From: Treponema sp.
GTDB taxonomy: Bacteria; Spirochaetota; Spirochaetia; Treponematales; Breznakiellaceae
DNA: 64,000 nucleotides
NCBI GenBank assembly: GCA_009777735.1
Contig: WRLF01000012.1
Span: 27,504-91,503, forward strand
Direction of reading: 5' to 3'
Shown: positions 17,630 to 64,000 of the stretch, piece by piece
How the letters are laid out: each line of letters opens with the position of its first letter
Numbering within the stretch: position 1 is the first letter of the stretch
Program-made: the position numbers and the translations under genes
Notes under the pieces: model-generated
Databases searched by the model: none
Told to the model about the DNA's origin: nothing
What the model saw: the letters and a program-made list of their open reading frames with translations, nothing else

Positions 17630-20446
17630 CTATAAATCACGTAAATACGATTCGATCTTGCCGGTACGGGCAAGCCCTTCTTCCAGTTTTGTTTTTTCTG
17701 CGGCAACCAGTTCCGGCGGCGCGTTTTTTACAAATTGATCGTTTGCCAGCTTTGTTTGCAGACTCCGGATATAGGCGCGGTCACGATCAAGGTCTTTTTC
17801 AAATTTACGTTTTAGCGCTGTTATGTCAACAGCTTCGGCAATAAAAACAAAAACCTCAAAACCGGAACCTGCCATTCCTATGGAACCGGGCGGCCGGCCA
17901 TTCGCTGCGTCAGCCGTAATTTCCAGTTCCCCAATTCCCGCAAGGAGTTTTACGAGCCCTTCGTTTTGCTTTAGCACCTGTTCCTGCTCACCGTCCAATC
18001 TGACCAGAACACGAAGCTTTTTATCCTGGGTAATGGTACACTCGGCGCGGAGGGTCCGTATCAAACGGACAAATTCCCGGAGGAAGGCAAAATGACGTAT
18101 TTCATCGGAGGAGTTGCGCCGCTCGTCAAACTCCGGATAGGGAGCGGTGATCAGCAGCCCTTCAGTGTTGGGCAGTTTGCTGTATATTTCCTCGGTAACA
18201 AAGGGCAATAGCGGATGTAACAACCTAAGAGATTCCGCCAGCACATCAAGCAGTACCGTAGTTGCGCGGTTTTTTTCCGCTGCATTTACCGCAGAATCCT
18301 CACCTGTTTTCATGGACAGCTTTGTAGCTTCAACATACCAGTCGCAAAAATCATTCCAGAAATATTCATAAGCGGTAAGGGCTGCGTCATTGTAGCGGTA
18401 CGATAGGAACGCATCTTTCATTGCCTGCGCCGCGTTGTTCAGCCGCGAATAGATCCATTTGTCAACCGGAAGCAAATCGGGGTTGTTCACCAATTCCCTG
18501 CCTTCCAGATTCATCAAAATATAGCGGCTGGCATTCCAGACTTTATTGGCAAATCGTGAACCCATTTTGAATGATTCCCTGTCAACAAGCACGTCTTGTC
18601 CCTGAGCGCACATAAACGCAAGGGTAAACTTCAATGCGTCTCCGCCGAATTCATCCACCAGTTCCAGCGGGTCAAGCCCATTGCCCAGGCTTTTGCTCAT
18701 TTTACGTCCCTGTTTGTCCCGTACCAGCCCATGAATGTAGATGTCCCTGAACGGTGCCTTGCCGGTAAACTCAAGCCCCGCCATTATCATCCGCGCCACC
18801 CAGAAAAAGATTATGTCGTAAGCGGTAATGAGCGCCGTAGTGGGATAAAACCGATCAAGATCGGGGACTGGGGACCGGGGACCGGGGACCGGGGATTGAG
18901 GGCTGGGAGTAGAGGACGGGGGCGTTGCGGGGGTGTCCCCCGCTGAGGGGGGTAGCGAAAAAGCCGAAGGCTTTGAAGCGAGGGGGGAGACTTCCCCCCC
19001 TTCTCTGATCCCTGATCCCTGATCCCCGATCCCCGATCCCCAACCAAGAGTGCTAAACGGCCATAGCCAGCTTGAGAACCAGGTGTCCAATACGTCGGGG
19101 TCTTGCTCAATGTTTACCGATCCGCAGTGGGAGCAGGCGGAAATGTCGCTGCGTGATACAGAGATTTTTCCGCAGTCTGCACAATCCCATGCGGGGATTC
19201 TGTGTCCCCACCAGAGCTGGCGGCTGACGCACCAATCACGGATATTTTCCAGCCAGTGCCGGTAAGTATGTTCCCATTTGCGGGGGTAAAAAATTATTTC
19301 TCCGTTCCGCCAGCAGGCTAAAGCTTTTTCCGCCAAAGGCTGCATCCTGACAAACCATTGTTTGGAAAGGAACGGCTCGATAATGGTACGGCAGCGGTAA
19401 CAATGCCCCACCGCATGGTTGATGGGTTCTTCCTTAATGTACCAGCCGCCTGCCTTGAGATCTTCAAGCACTGCGGCACGGGCTTTTTTTACCGTCAGCC
19501 CCCGGTATTTTTCGGGAACTTCGCTGTTAAGGGTGCCGTCGGGGTTGAGGATGTTGAGTACGGGAAGATCGTGCCGCTGTGCCACTTCCCAGTCGTTGGG
19601 GTCGTGGGCAGGAGTGATCTTCACCACGCCGGTTCCGAAAGCCCGGTCAACATAGGTGTCACACACTACGGGGATCTCCCGTCCGGCAAGGGGCAGCTTG
19701 ACCGATTTTCCAATAAGATTTGCATACCGTTCGTCTTCCGGGTGAACCGCCACAGCGGTGTCACCAAGTAATGTTTCGGGCCGGGTGGTGGCAAGTTCAA
19801 TAAAGCCATCCTCTTCAGTATGATAATACCGCAGGTGGTACATCCTGCCCGACATATCTTCGTGTTCAACTTCATCATCAGAAAGGGCTGTGCTGCAGGA
19901 TGTACACCAGTTTACCAGATAATTTCCCTTGTACAGCAAATCCCGCTCGTACAGGGTGACAAATACTTCCCGCACGGCATGGGCAAGTCCCTCGTCCAGC
20001 GTAAAGCGCTCGCGGTCCCAGTCAACGCTTGCTCCGATTCGGGCAAGCTGCTCGACAATAATGGCATGATGTTCGTTTTTGACTTTCCAGGTTTCATCGA
20101 GGAATTTATCCCTGCCCAGTTCGTGGCGGCTCTTTCCCTGCTCCTTCAGCTTGCGTTCCACCACATTCTGCGTGGCAATCCCCGCATGATCGGTGCCTGG
20201 CACCCACAGGGTGGGCACGCCGCGCATCCTGTGGTAACGGACAATAATATCCTGGAGGCTGTTGTTCAGCCCGTGTCCCAGGTGCAGTACGCCGGTAACA
20301 TTGGGCGGAGGTATAGTTATTACATAAGGTTTTCCGTCACATTTTGCCGATTCAGGTTTAAACGCGCCTTGTTCTTTCCAGGCGGTATAAATCCTGGTTT
20401 CAAAAGTTTTTGGGTCATACGCTTTTGCAAGTTCAATTGCCTTCAT
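17630..20446 (-). CDS. valS: Valyl-tRNA synthetase with a 59-residue repeat-derived insertion
   Basis: 938 aa from ATG 20444-20446 (MKAIELAKAYDPKTFETRIY). The track start lies 69 codons upstream, but a promoter within that extension would place the transcript start at this ATG. Catalytic motif PPNVTGVLHLGHGL, a CxxC zinc ribbon (DCADCGK and CSHCGS), the editing domain, KMSKSLGNG, the anticodon domain and the C-terminal coiled-coil arm (KRKFEKDLDRDRAYIRSL) are all present. Between FSTLGW and DLDRFYP, where relatives have a few residues, lie 59 extra residues rich in Gly, Pro and Ser. They are encoded by a palindromic repeat element (separate entry). The frame is kept, and the site is a surface loop before the KMSKS half, so the enzyme is probably active. 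Confidence 0.96.
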   Translation of the reverse strand: MKAIELAKAYDPKTFETRIYTAWKEQGAFKPESAKCDGKPYVITIPPPNVTGVLHLGHGLNNSLQDIIVRYHRMRGVPTLWVPGTDHAGIATQNVVERKLKEQGKSRHELGRDKFLDETWKVKNEHHAIIVEQLARIGASVDWDRERFTLDEGLAHAVREVFVTLYERDLLYKGNYLVNWCTSCSTALSDDEVEHEDMSGRMYHLRYYHTEEDGFIELATTRPETLLGDTAVAVHPEDERYANLIGKSVKLPLAGREIPVVCDTYVDRAFGTGVVKITPAHDPNDWEVAQRHDLPVLNILNPDGTLNSEVPEKYRGLTVKKARAAVLEDLKAGGWYIKEEPINHAVGHCYRCRTIIEPFLSKQWFVRMQPLAEKALACWRNGEIIFYPRKWEHTYRHWLENIRDWCVSRQLWWGHRIPAWDCADCGKISVSRSDISACSHCGSVNIEQDPDVLDTWFSSWLWPFSTLGWGSGIGDQGSGIREGGEVSPLASKPSAFSLPPSAGDTPATPPSSTPSPQSPVPGPRSPVPDLDRFYPTTALITAYDIIFFWVARMIMAGLEFTGKAPFRDIYIHGLVRDKQGRKMSKSLGNGLDPLELVDEFGGDALKFTLAFMCAQGQDVLVDRESFKMGSRFANKVWNASRYILMNLEGRELVNNPDLLPVDKWIYSRLNNAAQAMKDAFLSYRYNDAALTAYEYFWNDFCDWYVEATKLSMKTGEDSAVNAAEKNRATTVLLDVLAESLRLLHPLLPFVTEEIYSKLPNTEGLLITAPYPEFDERRNSSDEIRHFAFLREFVRLIRTLRAECTITQDKKLRVLVRLDGEQEQVLKQNEGLVKLLAGIGELEITADAANGRPPGSIGMAGSGFEVFVFIAEAVDITALKRKFEKDLDRDRAYIRSLQTKLANDQFVKNAPPELVAAEKTKLEEGLARTGKIESYLRDL
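18863..19039 (-). repeat. In-frame palindromic heptamer element inside valS
   Basis: 177 bp, a multiple of three, replacing a short loop in ValRS. On the coding strand it opens with five heptamers (three GGGGATC, two AGGGATC) and closes with five (AATCCCC, three GGTCCCC, AGTCCCC). The arms can pair as RNA over 35 positions using U-G wobbles; the same positions on the opposite strand give C-A mismatches. Between the arms are three small hairpins: GGGGGG/CCCCCC around AAGTCT, AAAGCC/GGCTTT around TTC, and GCGGGGG/CCCCCGC around ACA. It resembles in principle the palindromic elements of Rickettsia that insert in frame into genes, but the sequence is different. No other copy is in this window. 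Confidence 0.85.
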
Positions 20447-47939: not shown

Positions 47940-49385
47940 TTATTCTTTGCATGATTCTAAATCCTTCAATCGTTTCTCATCAAATTTGATGTGCAGGTTT
48001 TTTTCCTGTGTGGGGATTACACGCCACCTCCGGGTGGCGAGCCCTTTGGGACCATTTTTGGCGCGGCGCAGGTATTTTACCGGGGTGTAGAACAGATCCC
48101 CTTCGCCGTTATTGCGCCCCTTCGAATAAAAAAGCGCTAAATTGCCCGCGTCCAGAAGTATGTCCAGGGGGACAGTCTTACCGGTACGCTGCCTGATGAA
48201 CACATGCGATCCGGGAAAGTCCCTGGCATGGAGCCATAAGTCATTTCCCTTAACGTGGCGGCGCAGCAGTTCGTCGTTCTCCCCGGCATCCCTGCCAACC
48301 ATGATGATCCATTCACCGCGTTTGAAAGTTAGACCTGGCCATCTTCGGATGGCACGACGTTTATTATCACTGCCTGCTGCGGGCTTGGGTTTTCCAGACT
48401 GACTTTTAGCCAGCAGCTTTGCCAGAACCAGGGGGTTCTCTTCGGTAAGCAGCATTGCAAGCCTTTTTTCGACAGCATCAAGCTCCCGCTCGCCGGCTGC
48501 AATTTCCGCTCTTAGATCCGTAATGCCTTTTTTCGCTTTTGAATACTTTTCGTAATATACTTTTGCCTGCTCCGGAGGGCTTTTGTCCGGATTCAGTTGT
48601 ATCCGTATTTTTCCGCCGGTTCCTTCCGCCTCAAGCCATGTATCACCCGGTTTTATTGCCGTAATATTTGCGAGGATGATATCGCCGTATTCCCTCAGCC
48701 GGTCCGCTGAAGCAAACGCCGCTTCTTTCGCCCTTAGCCGATCCAGCGCCGCCTGCAAACGCCCCATGCTGCCTTCGCAGTTCTGCTTTGCCTGTTCCCG
48801 CAGAGCCTCCAGCGAAAGAGCGCCGCCTTTTTCCGTGTAAAAAGCATCGATTTTCGCATTGAAAGAATCGCCGCCGGGCAGTTCCCTGACTTCATATTCA
48901 CTGCTCTTTTCGGTGTTTCTGCTTTTGCCTTCCGGCATGTAATGCCCGCCGGTTATTTCTCCTTTTTTCGGCTGGCGGCGCATTGCGTCCAGTACTATCC
49001 CGTTTTCATCGGTGACAATGCAATTTGCCGCATTGGACCACAGCCTGATGTACAGGCGGTACTGGTTTTCTCCCCTGCTCACCAGCAGCCGGATAATGCG
49101 GTTGTCCCCCAACTGTACCGCTTCCGTTATCCATCCGTTGACAATTCTTGACTTGAGGAACTGGGCAAACCGCAGTGGTTTTTCGCTTTTGGGAAGAGGC
49201 CGAAATGTTTCATGTATGCGACATGCGCCGGGGGTTAATGCTATGAGCAGTTGCCTGGTAACGCCTCTGTTATGCACCCGCAGCCCGATGACATCAAAGG
49301 CGCTTTGGATAGCACCCTGTATCTGAGCCCCCGGCAAGTCAAGTTCTTCGAGAATAAGGTTAATTTCTTTCCAGTTCAGGGACAT
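47940..49385 (-). CDS. rqcH: NFACT-family ribosome quality control protein (RqcH/FbpA-like)
   Basis: 481 aa. NFACT-N opens with the helix MSLNWKEINLILEELDLPGAQI and continues to about 190. A coiled coil lies at about 235-330 (AKVYYEKYSKAKKGITDLRAEIAAGERELDAVEKRL). The NFACT-R domain follows (about 370-470: GRDAGENDELLRRHVKGNDLWLHARDFPGSHVFIR, then AGNLALFYSKGRNNGEGDLFYTPVKYLRR). In bacteria RqcH binds the obstructed 50S subunit and adds alanine tails; older annotations call it fibronectin-binding. It is shorter than the usual 550-570 aa, mainly in the middle helical part. A palindromic element separates it from tatD upstream. Confidence 0.85.
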   Translation of the reverse strand: MSLNWKEINLILEELDLPGAQIQGAIQSAFDVIGLRVHNRGVTRQLLIALTPGACRIHETFRPLPKSEKPLRFAQFLKSRIVNGWITEAVQLGDNRIIRLLVSRGENQYRLYIRLWSNAANCIVTDENGIVLDAMRRQPKKGEITGGHYMPEGKSRNTEKSSEYEVRELPGGDSFNAKIDAFYTEKGGALSLEALREQAKQNCEGSMGRLQAALDRLRAKEAAFASADRLREYGDIILANITAIKPGDTWLEAEGTGGKIRIQLNPDKSPPEQAKVYYEKYSKAKKGITDLRAEIAAGERELDAVEKRLAMLLTEENPLVLAKLLAKSQSGKPKPAAGSDNKRRAIRRWPGLTFKRGEWIIMVGRDAGENDELLRRHVKGNDLWLHARDFPGSHVFIRQRTGKTVPLDILLDAGNLALFYSKGRNNGEGDLFYTPVKYLRRAKNGPKGLATRRWRVIPTQEKNLHIKFDEKRLKDLESCKE

Positions 49386-49412
49386 AGTGGCTCTTGCAAG
49401 ACTATACCAAAA

Positions 49413-49531
49413 CAGAAATGTATACCTCTAAAGACCTGCAATGTGGGGCCCGCCTGTGGCCAAACGCACCGCTTTGCGGCACGCTTGCCACAGGCACCCA
49501 GCGTTGTTGTCATTTCAGGCATACATTTCTG
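49413..49531. repeat. Palindromic intergenic element, copy A
   Basis: 119 bp with nested inverted repeats: outer CAGAAATGTAT/ATACATTTCTG (11 bp), then CCTGCAATG/CATTTCAGG (one mismatch), GCCTGTGGC/GCCACAGGC (9 bp), and a tip CCGC-TTT-GCGG. It shares conserved blocks with copy B at 63902: GGGGCCCG, CGCACCGCTT, CGCTT.CCAC and the left end CAG.AATGTA. It fills the gap between tatD and rqcH and contains no ORF. It may act as an mRNA-processing hairpin or be a non-autonomous mobile repeat. Confidence 0.8.
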
Positions 49532-49559
49532 AATTTCTACAATTGTACATCGCTGATAG

Positions 49560-50336
49560 TTAATCATTCGGCAGGCCGAAAAACCGGTTGGAATTTTTCC
49601 ATAATTGTGCCGTAATGGCTTCCGGTTCCATTTCCAGCATCTTTGCAAGGTATAGAGCGGTTTCCGGCAGGTATTTGGGCATATTCCGCTTGCCTTTTTG
49701 CCCGGAAGGTACCATAAACGGGCTTTCTGATTCAATGAGGATGCGGTCCAAAGGCAGTTCGGGAATTGTTTCGTGGAGATTGCGGGCGTTTTTGTACGTA
49801 AGGTTGCCGGCAAAGGAAAAATACAGGTTTAATTTTTGTGCTTCCCGTGCATAAGCGGCGTCTTCGGAGTAGCAGTGCAATACCCCGCCTTTTGGCGGGA
49901 GGCGGTCGCGGAGAATATCCAGCACGTCATGGCCGGCATCCCGGTTGTGGATGATTACCGGCATATTAAGCTTGGTTGCAAGATCCAACTGGGTGATAAA
50001 CAGCTCGATTTGGGATTTTTTATCCCCAAACTTGCGGAAATAGTCCAGGCCGATTTCTCCAATAGCGACGACTCTGGGCAGATGAACGCCCTGCTCAATG
50101 GTTTGTTGCCAGTTTCTGCCGGGATTCTGCACTTCTGACGGGCTTACACCGACTGCATGGTACACACTGGTCGTTGATTTCAGGTTCTCGTATACCCGTG
50201 TAAAGTCATGGAGACTGTTGCAGATAGAGACAACCCGGTTAACTGAAGCCTGGCGGGCTTCCTGTATGACAATGAGCTGTTCAATGGGGTCATCAATAAT
50301 AAGCCCCAAATGGGCATGGGTATCAAAATACTGCAT
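49560..50336 (-). CDS. tatD: TatD-family hydrolase
   Basis: 258 aa from ATG 50334-50336 (a TTG 12 bases upstream is possible). Metal-dependent TIM-barrel deoxyribonuclease: YFDTHAHLGL, AIGEIGLDYFRKFGDKKSQ, VIIHNRDAGHDVLDIL and VLHCYSEDAAYA are all present. The C-terminal ETDAPY motif reads IESESPFMVP, with Glu where the metal-ligand Asp is expected, so activity may be changed. The family acts as 3'-5' DNA/RNA exonuclease in repair. It is transcribed leftward towards rqcH. Confidence 0.88.
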   Translation of the reverse strand: MQYFDTHAHLGLIIDDPIEQLIVIQEARQASVNRVVSICNSLHDFTRVYENLKSTTSVYHAVGVSPSEVQNPGRNWQQTIEQGVHLPRVVAIGEIGLDYFRKFGDKKSQIELFITQLDLATKLNMPVIIHNRDAGHDVLDILRDRLPPKGGVLHCYSEDAAYAREAQKLNLYFSFAGNLTYKNARNLHETIPELPLDRILIESESPFMVPSGQKGKRNMPKYLPETALYLAKMLEMEPEAITAQLWKNSNRFFGLPND

Positions 50337-50475: not shown

Positions 50476-51756
50476 TTAAAAATCACTGAAACGGTAAAAT
50501 CGCAGTCCCAAATCCCTCGCTGTCCGCAGCACAAATTCCAGCCGCCGGGGGGTAATGCCCCATGCTGCGCTTGAAATTTCATGAGTAGTAAGGGGCAAAA
50601 CCCAGTTGCTGTCCAGAAATTTAACAGTCCTGAGCATTGACGTGACGATTCTGTTAAAATTCGCATCTCCGGGGATAACGGTATTGTCAATGGCGCGGGA
50701 AGAAATGTAAGCCGACTTGATTTCATGAGCCCGGTACAACCGGAATGTTACTCCATATCCCCGCAGGACGCCAAATGTCCGTAAAAGAACGCCATGCATC
50801 CATGATTCGGAAAAACCATACGGATAGGCAAATGATGACAGGGGAACTCCTGCCTGTCTGAATGTTTCTGCCTGGTCAATGGTTTCCCGGTTAAAAGTTG
50901 CCCTTGAAACTCCCCGCAGATCCGTATGATTCAGGCTATGGTAGCCTATGTCATGCCCGCGGTTTATGGCTCTTGCGGCAAAAGAATTTAAACGGCCCTG
51001 TATGAAAAAGGTAACCTTGGCTCCGTACCGGTCAAATAGGTCAAAGTGCTGTTCCCATGACTGGAAATAATCATCATCAAAAGAGAGGAGTATCCCGGCA
51101 TTTCCGGCACGGGGCCTCCACATAAGAGTGTCCTCAATGACTGTCCCTGTTCTCGTATTTCGAAGGGTAAAACGTACTTCATAGGCAGAATTTCCTGTAT
51201 CCCTGGCATTATCCAGATTATAGGTAACTTCAAAATTGCCGGCATCATCACGTATGTCCGCTTTGACACTAATTTGCCCGCCTGCCCCCAGAACAAAATG
51301 TTTGGTAATGTCTTCATTGCGTTTTATCCGCTGAACCAGGCGTTCAATGGGAGTAGGTATTATTTCCGGTGGTTGAGCGGGAGGAGTTGCTGCCATTGCC
51401 ATTTCTGCAATTGCAGTCAATTCCGCAGGTTGCTCCGGTTCAATAATTACTGCTGCTTCTGTGACATCCGCAGTTTCAGCAATTTCTGCAACTTCCGTGA
51501 TTTCGGTGATTTCTGCAATTTCCGGTATTTCAATCACTTCTTCGATTTCGATTACTTCGGTGATTTCAGGAACTTCTTCGACTTCGGTTATTTCTGTGAT
51601 TTCAGGAACTTCTTCAATTTCGGTAACTTCCGGAATTTCAATTACCTCTTCTATTCGGGGTGCTTCTTCAACAGGCCGATGCGGACGGCTTGCGCATGCG
51701 GCTATCAACAGAAATGTCAGTATATACAGGCAGAACAATCGCAATGCTTTTTTCAT
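50476..51756 (-). CDS. Polysaccharide deacetylase-like (NodB) lipoprotein with a repetitive acidic stalk
   Basis: 426 aa. The signal peptide ends in LLIAAC. Residues about 33-105 are a low-complexity stalk built of EI/EV/PEI/TEV units. The NodB-type domain follows (about 215-400): LLSFDDDYFQSW gives the metal-binding Asp pair, HDIGYHSLNHTDL gives the two His, and SSFAYPYGF is motif 3. CE4 enzymes remove N-acetyl groups from chitin, peptidoglycan or other glycans. The lipid anchor and stalk would hold the enzyme away from the membrane. The C-terminal RTARDLGLRFYRFSDF is typical. Substrate unknown. Confidence 0.82.
   Translation of the reverse strand: MKKALRLFCLYILTFLLIAACASRPHRPVEEAPRIEEVIEIPEVTEIEEVPEITEITEVEEVPEITEVIEIEEVIEIPEIAEITEITEVAEIAETADVTEAAVIIEPEQPAELTAIAEMAMAATPPAQPPEIIPTPIERLVQRIKRNEDITKHFVLGAGGQISVKADIRDDAGNFEVTYNLDNARDTGNSAYEVRFTLRNTRTGTVIEDTLMWRPRAGNAGILLSFDDDYFQSWEQHFDLFDRYGAKVTFFIQGRLNSFAARAINRGHDIGYHSLNHTDLRGVSRATFNRETIDQAETFRQAGVPLSSFAYPYGFSESWMHGVLLRTFGVLRGYGVTFRLYRAHEIKSAYISSRAIDNTVIPGDANFNRIVTSMLRTVKFLDSNWVLPLTTHEISSAAWGITPRRLEFVLRTARDLGLRFYRFSDF
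51445..51658 (-). repeat. Low-complexity tandem repeat coding for the deacetylase stalk
   Basis: Degenerate short repeats of the type GAAGTTCCTGAAATCAC / GAAATAACCGAAGTC encode alternating Glu-Ile/Val, Pro and Thr residues. Variation in copy number between strains is likely. Its antisense ORF in the track (Phe/Asn/Cys-rich) is a shadow. Confidence 0.75.
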
Positions 51757-63901: not shown

Positions 63902-64000
63902 CAGCAATGTAATACCCGCAAGACTTGAGCGGGGCCCGTCGGCTGGTCAAGCGCACCGCTTGCGCGGCCCGCTTACCACCGACACCCCCCCCAATCAAGC
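63902..64000. repeat. Palindromic intergenic element, copy B, cut by window end
   Basis: It begins CAGCAATGTAATACCCGCAA and carries the family blocks GGGGCCCG, CGCACCGCTT and CGCTTACCACCGACACCC. Inner pairs are CTTGA/TCAAG, GTCGG..TGG/CCA.CCGAC, AAGCG/CGCTT and the tip CCGC-TTGC-GCGG. The right outer arm lies beyond base 64000. Relative to copy A the stems differ in sequence but keep pairing. Confidence 0.75.

Follow-up and report, generated by a model that had tools for sequence, protein, structure and literature searches.

The question raised by this locus is what kind of element forms the long palindrome located between a tatD-type nuclease gene and an rqcH-type gene in a draft genome of Treponema sp. 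The analysed window is a stretch of 64,000 nucleotides (contig C12:27504-91503) from this 2.69-Mb assembly, which consists of 39 contigs and is approximately 83% complete. A sequence-only reading of the window had described the palindrome as copy A of a dispersed family with covarying stems, with a second copy, B, at the end of the window, and had suggested a REP/BIME-like or non-autonomous mobile element or a structured RNA processing signal. The position of copy A between tatD and rqcH was confirmed by Pfam matches to the flanking genes, which are an rqcH-type (NFACT) gene (47940-49385, minus strand; NFACT_N, E 3.6e-41, and NFACT-R_1) and a tatD-type gene (50348 to 49560, minus strand; TatD_DNase, E 1e-70). 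The full element spans positions 49391-49562 of the plus strand, an extent judged from homologous copies of two other species (74-75% identity to copies G009:C11 and G001:C20). Its outer stem P0 is formed by the inverted repeats CAGAAATGTATACC (49413-49426, plus strand) and GGCATACATTTCTG (49518-49531, plus strand), which enclose a conserved core hairpin reading GGGGCCCG...CACCC (49445-49499, plus strand; placed by the core alignment and by covariance model R1 at G000:C12:76948-77002, 72.2 bits, E 1.3e-16). In silico, the segment 49413-49531 forms a single long hairpin of -60.6 kcal/mol, with a z-score of -7.4 relative to 200 shuffled sequences. The hairpin itself is thus real, but some of the stem pairs originally listed are not true partners, as the middle stem of copy A pairs GCAATGTGGG with CCCAGCGTTG. 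The left end of copy A, GGCTCTTG, raised the possibility of ISL3-type ends.

Copy B comprises a left arm and a core (63902-64000, plus strand), including the conserved core hairpin at 63931-63987 (plus strand; model R1, G000:C12:91434-91490, 72.3 bits, E 1.2e-16), and it shares sequence blocks and the CCGC/GCGG tip with copy A. Its right arm is missing because the end of the window is also the end of the contig. Since copy B and the beginning of contig C17 (locus L019) overlap, the two probably represent one physical copy, inside which contigs C12 and C17 probably meet. The stretches GCGGCCCG and CCCCCCCC in copy B look like contig-end errors, as contig C17 has GCGGCACG and CCCGCCC at these places. 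Copies A and B are the only ones within the window. Elsewhere in the window, a polysaccharide deacetylase gene (50476-51756) was seen to encode a long Glu/Ile/Thr/Val-rich repeat in the N-terminal part of its product.

A DNA search of the draft genome returned about 30 further matches, the best E-value (6e-57) being that of copy A itself. The covariance model R1, built from 47 cores, yielded 39 matches in the same genome at E < 1e-6, one of which is probably the duplicate at the junction of copy B and contig C17. Two high-GC matches of a pattern scan (L066 and L070) were discarded as chance hits that do not have the fold of the family. Within the genus, matches were detected in 23 of 40 genomes (E<=0.001). 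A search of the order gave matches in 23 of 294 genomes (E<=1e-5), belonging to the genus, to other genera of its family and, in two cases, to a second family, and an even draw of 393 genomes from the phylum gave four (E<=1e-6), all from those same two families of the order. The family thus becomes sparser beyond the genus, and the order- and phylum-scale counts are lower bounds, since the filters are stricter whenever more than 40 genomes are searched. Named carriers besides the draft genome include Treponema Nl494_bin32, Th196P3bin31, Crp329_bin9 and Pal332_bin4, which we take from the sample names to be termite-gut samples; the host of the window is accordingly assigned, as a likely placement, to this group. 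No Rfam family matched the window at the gathering score, and six loci searched at E<=1 gave tRNAs only. A search of titles and abstracts in a limited literature collection brought up no relevant description of the family from Treponema or Breznakiellaceae, and as far as could be checked the family is undescribed.

Every copy is built as an imperfect palindrome with nested parts, namely terminal arms, the outer stem P0, a linker and the asymmetric core hairpin; the core measures 55-66 nt and the whole element 120-230 nt. The core follows the pattern GGG-KCCY-GNC...GNC-A-CCC. Its stems have, in order, three, five, three and five pairs; a 4x1 internal loop separates the first from the second, a mismatch the second from the third and a bulged base the third from the fourth, after which come two CA/CA positions and a variable tip. 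Beyond the core follow the linker, P0 and then further arms. Stem P0 reads CAG.AATGTATGCC in many copies, but its sequence is of another kind in other genera. Of 22 copies tested, 10 had a tail resembling GATRGGGAAGA on their right side, at a distance of 70-74 nt from the core in nine cases, and none had it on the left. Some copies are nested in the apex of another, and partial right halves trail full copies in tandem.

Several variants of this architecture were also recorded. In three copies (L028, L141 and L154) a small hairpin CGCCTGC..GCAGGCG is inserted near the core tip, and an exact pattern for this hairpin had no match in the window. In three copies of genome G290 (L298, L303 and L308) a further small hairpin takes the place of the right-hand side of the loop, so that a three-way junction may form. 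Another nested palindrome lies beside two copies on contig C6 of the draft genome (L178, approximately 18660-18890 of G000:C6); it has 23-nt ends, GGCGGCGGGCTGGGAGCGGGGTG and CACCCCGCTCCCAGCCCGCCGCC, and its inner part resembles a P0 arm minus its core.

Covariation of the stems was evident in a core alignment (47 cores, 45 of them distinct) that was built by sequence, with structure not used in the fitting. Paired bases occupied 96.9% of the cells, and 11 of 20 pairs changed on both sides, with 93 two-sided cells observed against 25 in shuffled alignments and 0-7 with slid partners. The proposed dispersed family with covarying stems is therefore borne out. Outside the core, the sequence of the outer stem varies from copy to copy while the two arms within one copy match. 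Among 27 copies of the draft genome, for which the P0 arms were chosen by pattern and in eight cases by hand, each left arm agreed much more closely with the right arm of its own copy than with the right arms of other copies (z 10.8; 0 of 50,000 permutations reached the observed value), and 13 copies were perfect over 14 nt.

Matched arms may also arise during replication. Template switching is able to generate a paired stem, and to maintain one, in a single event (PMC8794818), and it has to be regarded as a serious alternative source of the matching. It forms part of a reading of the family as ordinary MITEs, in which a DDE transposase would read only the double-stranded terminal repeats, the inner palindrome would be passive cargo, and the arms would be matched by template switching and gene conversion rather than by selection on the fold. 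The changes in the stems are two-sided with almost no one-sided intermediates, as template switching predicts (PMC8794818). On the other hand, the asymmetric features KCCY/A and CA/CA are kept across genera, although template switching would be expected to remove such imperfections, and P0 varies within a single genome (19 distinct left 14-mers in the 27 copies), unlike a fixed terminal repeat. We regard the ordinary MITE as rather doubtful.

The conserved mismatches provided information on the strand that folds. On the strand used by the sequence-only reading, 97 distinct cores contained 35 A.C but only 8 G.U cells (p 4e-5 on the assumption of independent cells, which does not hold, the bias being one of cells and not of independent events). 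At the first CA/CA position, 11 of 17 changes became Watson-Crick pairs (CG 6, TA 5; one further AT cell was left uncounted), as did 23 of 25 at the second (AT 12, GC 10, CG 1), and the other strand therefore carries a tandem G.U there. Because the apparent CA/CA loop is a tandem G.U pair on the opposite strand, the reverse complement of the strand first considered is more likely to be the one selected in the core. The opposite strand also folded better in 95 of the 97 cores, which is largely a consequence of the same CA/CA positions. The outer arms of 73 copies showed no strand bias (88 G.T vs 91 A.C), so that the evidence for a single folded strand concerns the core only and not the arms.

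The family may alternatively be read as a cis-acting RNA element, such as a 3' UTR stabiliser, processing site or terminator, on the opposite strand, spread by mobility and kept for its effect on the transcript. Both the tandem G.U positions and the A.C/G.U bias of the core indicate one folded strand, and in the draft genome the right-hand gene points its 3' end at the copy in 21 of 26 cases. In other genomes the orientation of the neighbours was even (convergent 12, ++ 12, divergent 10, -- 10); the genes in both counts came from a simple open-frame caller that makes crude calls. This inconsistent orientation, the outer arms with G.T and A.C mismatches equally common, and the missing Rfam match weaken the RNA processing signal put forward initially, and we consider a cis-acting RNA element unlikely. 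According to the same gene calls, the copies are mostly intergenic, occur in either orientation and have unrelated neighbours. A total of 90 neighbouring proteins matched 139 Pfam families, none of them common to more than four, and there is therefore no single gene context; a gene-linked element was rejected on these grounds.

Mobility was deduced from sites with and without a copy. The rqcH-tatD interval measures 174 nt in the draft genome but 11 nt in G009 and 18 nt in G017, both of which have no copy at this site. On contig C6, the interval between a gene and a tRNA is 613 nt long and contains two copies and another palindrome, whereas G017 has 49 nt there and G035 has 68 nt. The tRNA of G035 matches on the strand opposite to the gene, which leaves G017 as the one strictly colinear genome at this site. 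Copies were thus gained or lost at two sites, where no outgroup polarises the direction and deletions are possible in principle. In G035 (contig C29, within L161) the tatD-rqcH interval was 170 nt long and held a different palindromic insert rich in CTTTGCG. Moreover, near-identical copies are located at unrelated flanks in G290 (93-97% identity), G030 (93-95%) and G013 (92% over 119 nt). The copy number, the two empty sites and the recent copies at unrelated sites agree with the non-autonomous mobile element suggested at the outset, and the mobility of the family is well supported.

The elements of G290 carry a perfect terminal inverted repeat of 16 bp with 84 occurrences within two mismatches, compared with one for a reversed control. 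Two unrelated kinds of core are found between the ends formed by this repeat, which is also the case in MITE families that share a mobiliser. No target-site duplication was seen by eye in the recent copies of G290, G030 and G013, whose ends are not exactly fixed, and no autonomous relative with the same ends was recognised among the G290 places examined. Two candidates for an autonomous copy in G290 were rejected: on contig C46 the 1.2-kb spacing results from two separate elements on either side of an LPD3-domain protein, and on contig C15 the longer interval is due to an ISAs1-type IS inserted into an element. This IS (L306, approximately 1226-2494 of G290:C15) encodes DDE_Tnp_1 and an associated domain, lies in the terminal repeat of the element and is accompanied by an apparent duplication of CCCCCTGCAA. 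A gene for a Transposase_31/YhgA-like protein (L292:1467-2366, G290:C46) adjoins copies, and two other scanned neighbouring proteins match PDDEXK_2.

The family was compared with known classes of palindromic repeats. MITEs are shorter than 500 bp and have terminal repeats and, when young, direct repeats (PMC10969869). The family shares with prokaryotic MITEs (PMC10969869) a length below 500 bp, terminal inverted repeats, a non-coding and dispersed nature and, in G290, identical ends around different interiors; insertion at previously empty sites was seen at two loci, with the direction unpolarised. Unlike in MITEs, the ends vary among the copies of one genome yet match within a copy, the asymmetric core is conserved and the palindromes are nested. 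Within this comparison, the ordinary MITE reading accounts well for the terminal repeats of G290, which match and have interchangeable cores between them, and for the outer arms without wobble bias, and less well for the fact that no target duplication was seen by eye in the recent copies.

REP elements are 20-40 bp long and end in a GTAG or CGTC tag, the GTAG families being tied to a transposase (PMC3733652). REPs and REPINs with their RAYT (PMC3733652, PMC3116915) resemble the family as dispersed intergenic palindromes of both orientations with variable stem sequences, but in the latter the core alone exceeds the length of a REP. Within 75 nt of 34 cores, neither GTAG (4 and 3; shuffled 6.6 and 7.4) nor CGTC (0 and 2; shuffled 5.6 and 4.8) was enriched. 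A Y1 transposase was present in 10 of 23 carrier genomes and in 8 of 17 non-carriers, all counted in incomplete drafts; none was found in the incomplete draft of G030 with its 43 family matches, and seven Y1 loci checked contained no R1 match. Membership in the REP/RAYT class was rejected by these data, namely the missing end tag, the missing association with Y1 and the excessive length, and the REP/BIME-like assignment is not supported in the sense of membership.

Recombination sites of the attC type fold, as single strands, into long hairpins in which unpaired features are conserved and the stem sequence is free. The family resembles this general form, and an attC-like site folded from one strand was considered; the box pair RYYYAAC/GTTRRRY surrounded none of 34 copies on either strand, and the copies are dispersed beside unrelated, often housekeeping genes and not in cassette arrays. 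With the boxes absent, membership in attC was rejected, and an attC-like site is very improbable. ERIC and Correia-type sequences are imperfect palindromes of about 100-170 bp in intergenic regions. The family has this general design in common with ERIC, RU and Correia-type sequences (PMC2229807, PMC2759123) and differs in its core motif, its nested arms and its spirochaete range, the comparison being one of descriptions and not of sequences.

The explanation that we favour, and which is probable rather than certain, is that of small non-autonomous, MITE-like mobile elements (approximately 120-230 bp) that are spread by DNA transposition in trans, with a single strand of the core folding for recognition. 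The elements would move by means of an enzyme supplied in trans, and a single strand of the core would have to fold to be recognised by it, as in single-strand transposition. Hairpin-driven template switching together with gene conversion between copies may help to keep the arms matched and to swap the cores. The mobiliser and the role of the folding are what we infer from this pattern. A further version, offered tentatively as one possibility, is an element class of the Treponematales in which the core, with its conserved tandem wobble and 4x1 internal loop, would be read as a folded single strand by a putative enzyme and the outer arms would be rewritten in step, each copy having its private stem.

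The hairpin between tatD and rqcH is a member of a real family, widespread in one lineage, of small, folded and apparently mobile elements of termite-gut spirochaetes with an unusual conserved core. For this abundant and mostly uncultured lineage, the data bring a widespread family of repeats that, as far as could be checked, had not been described. Many contig ends are located within copies; the family appears to break assemblies, which matters to users of these genomes. With many copies per genome, matched arms in each copy and conserved mismatches in the core, it also represents a natural experiment on stem pairing, which offers a way to tell selection on the fold from the effects of template switching or gene conversion.
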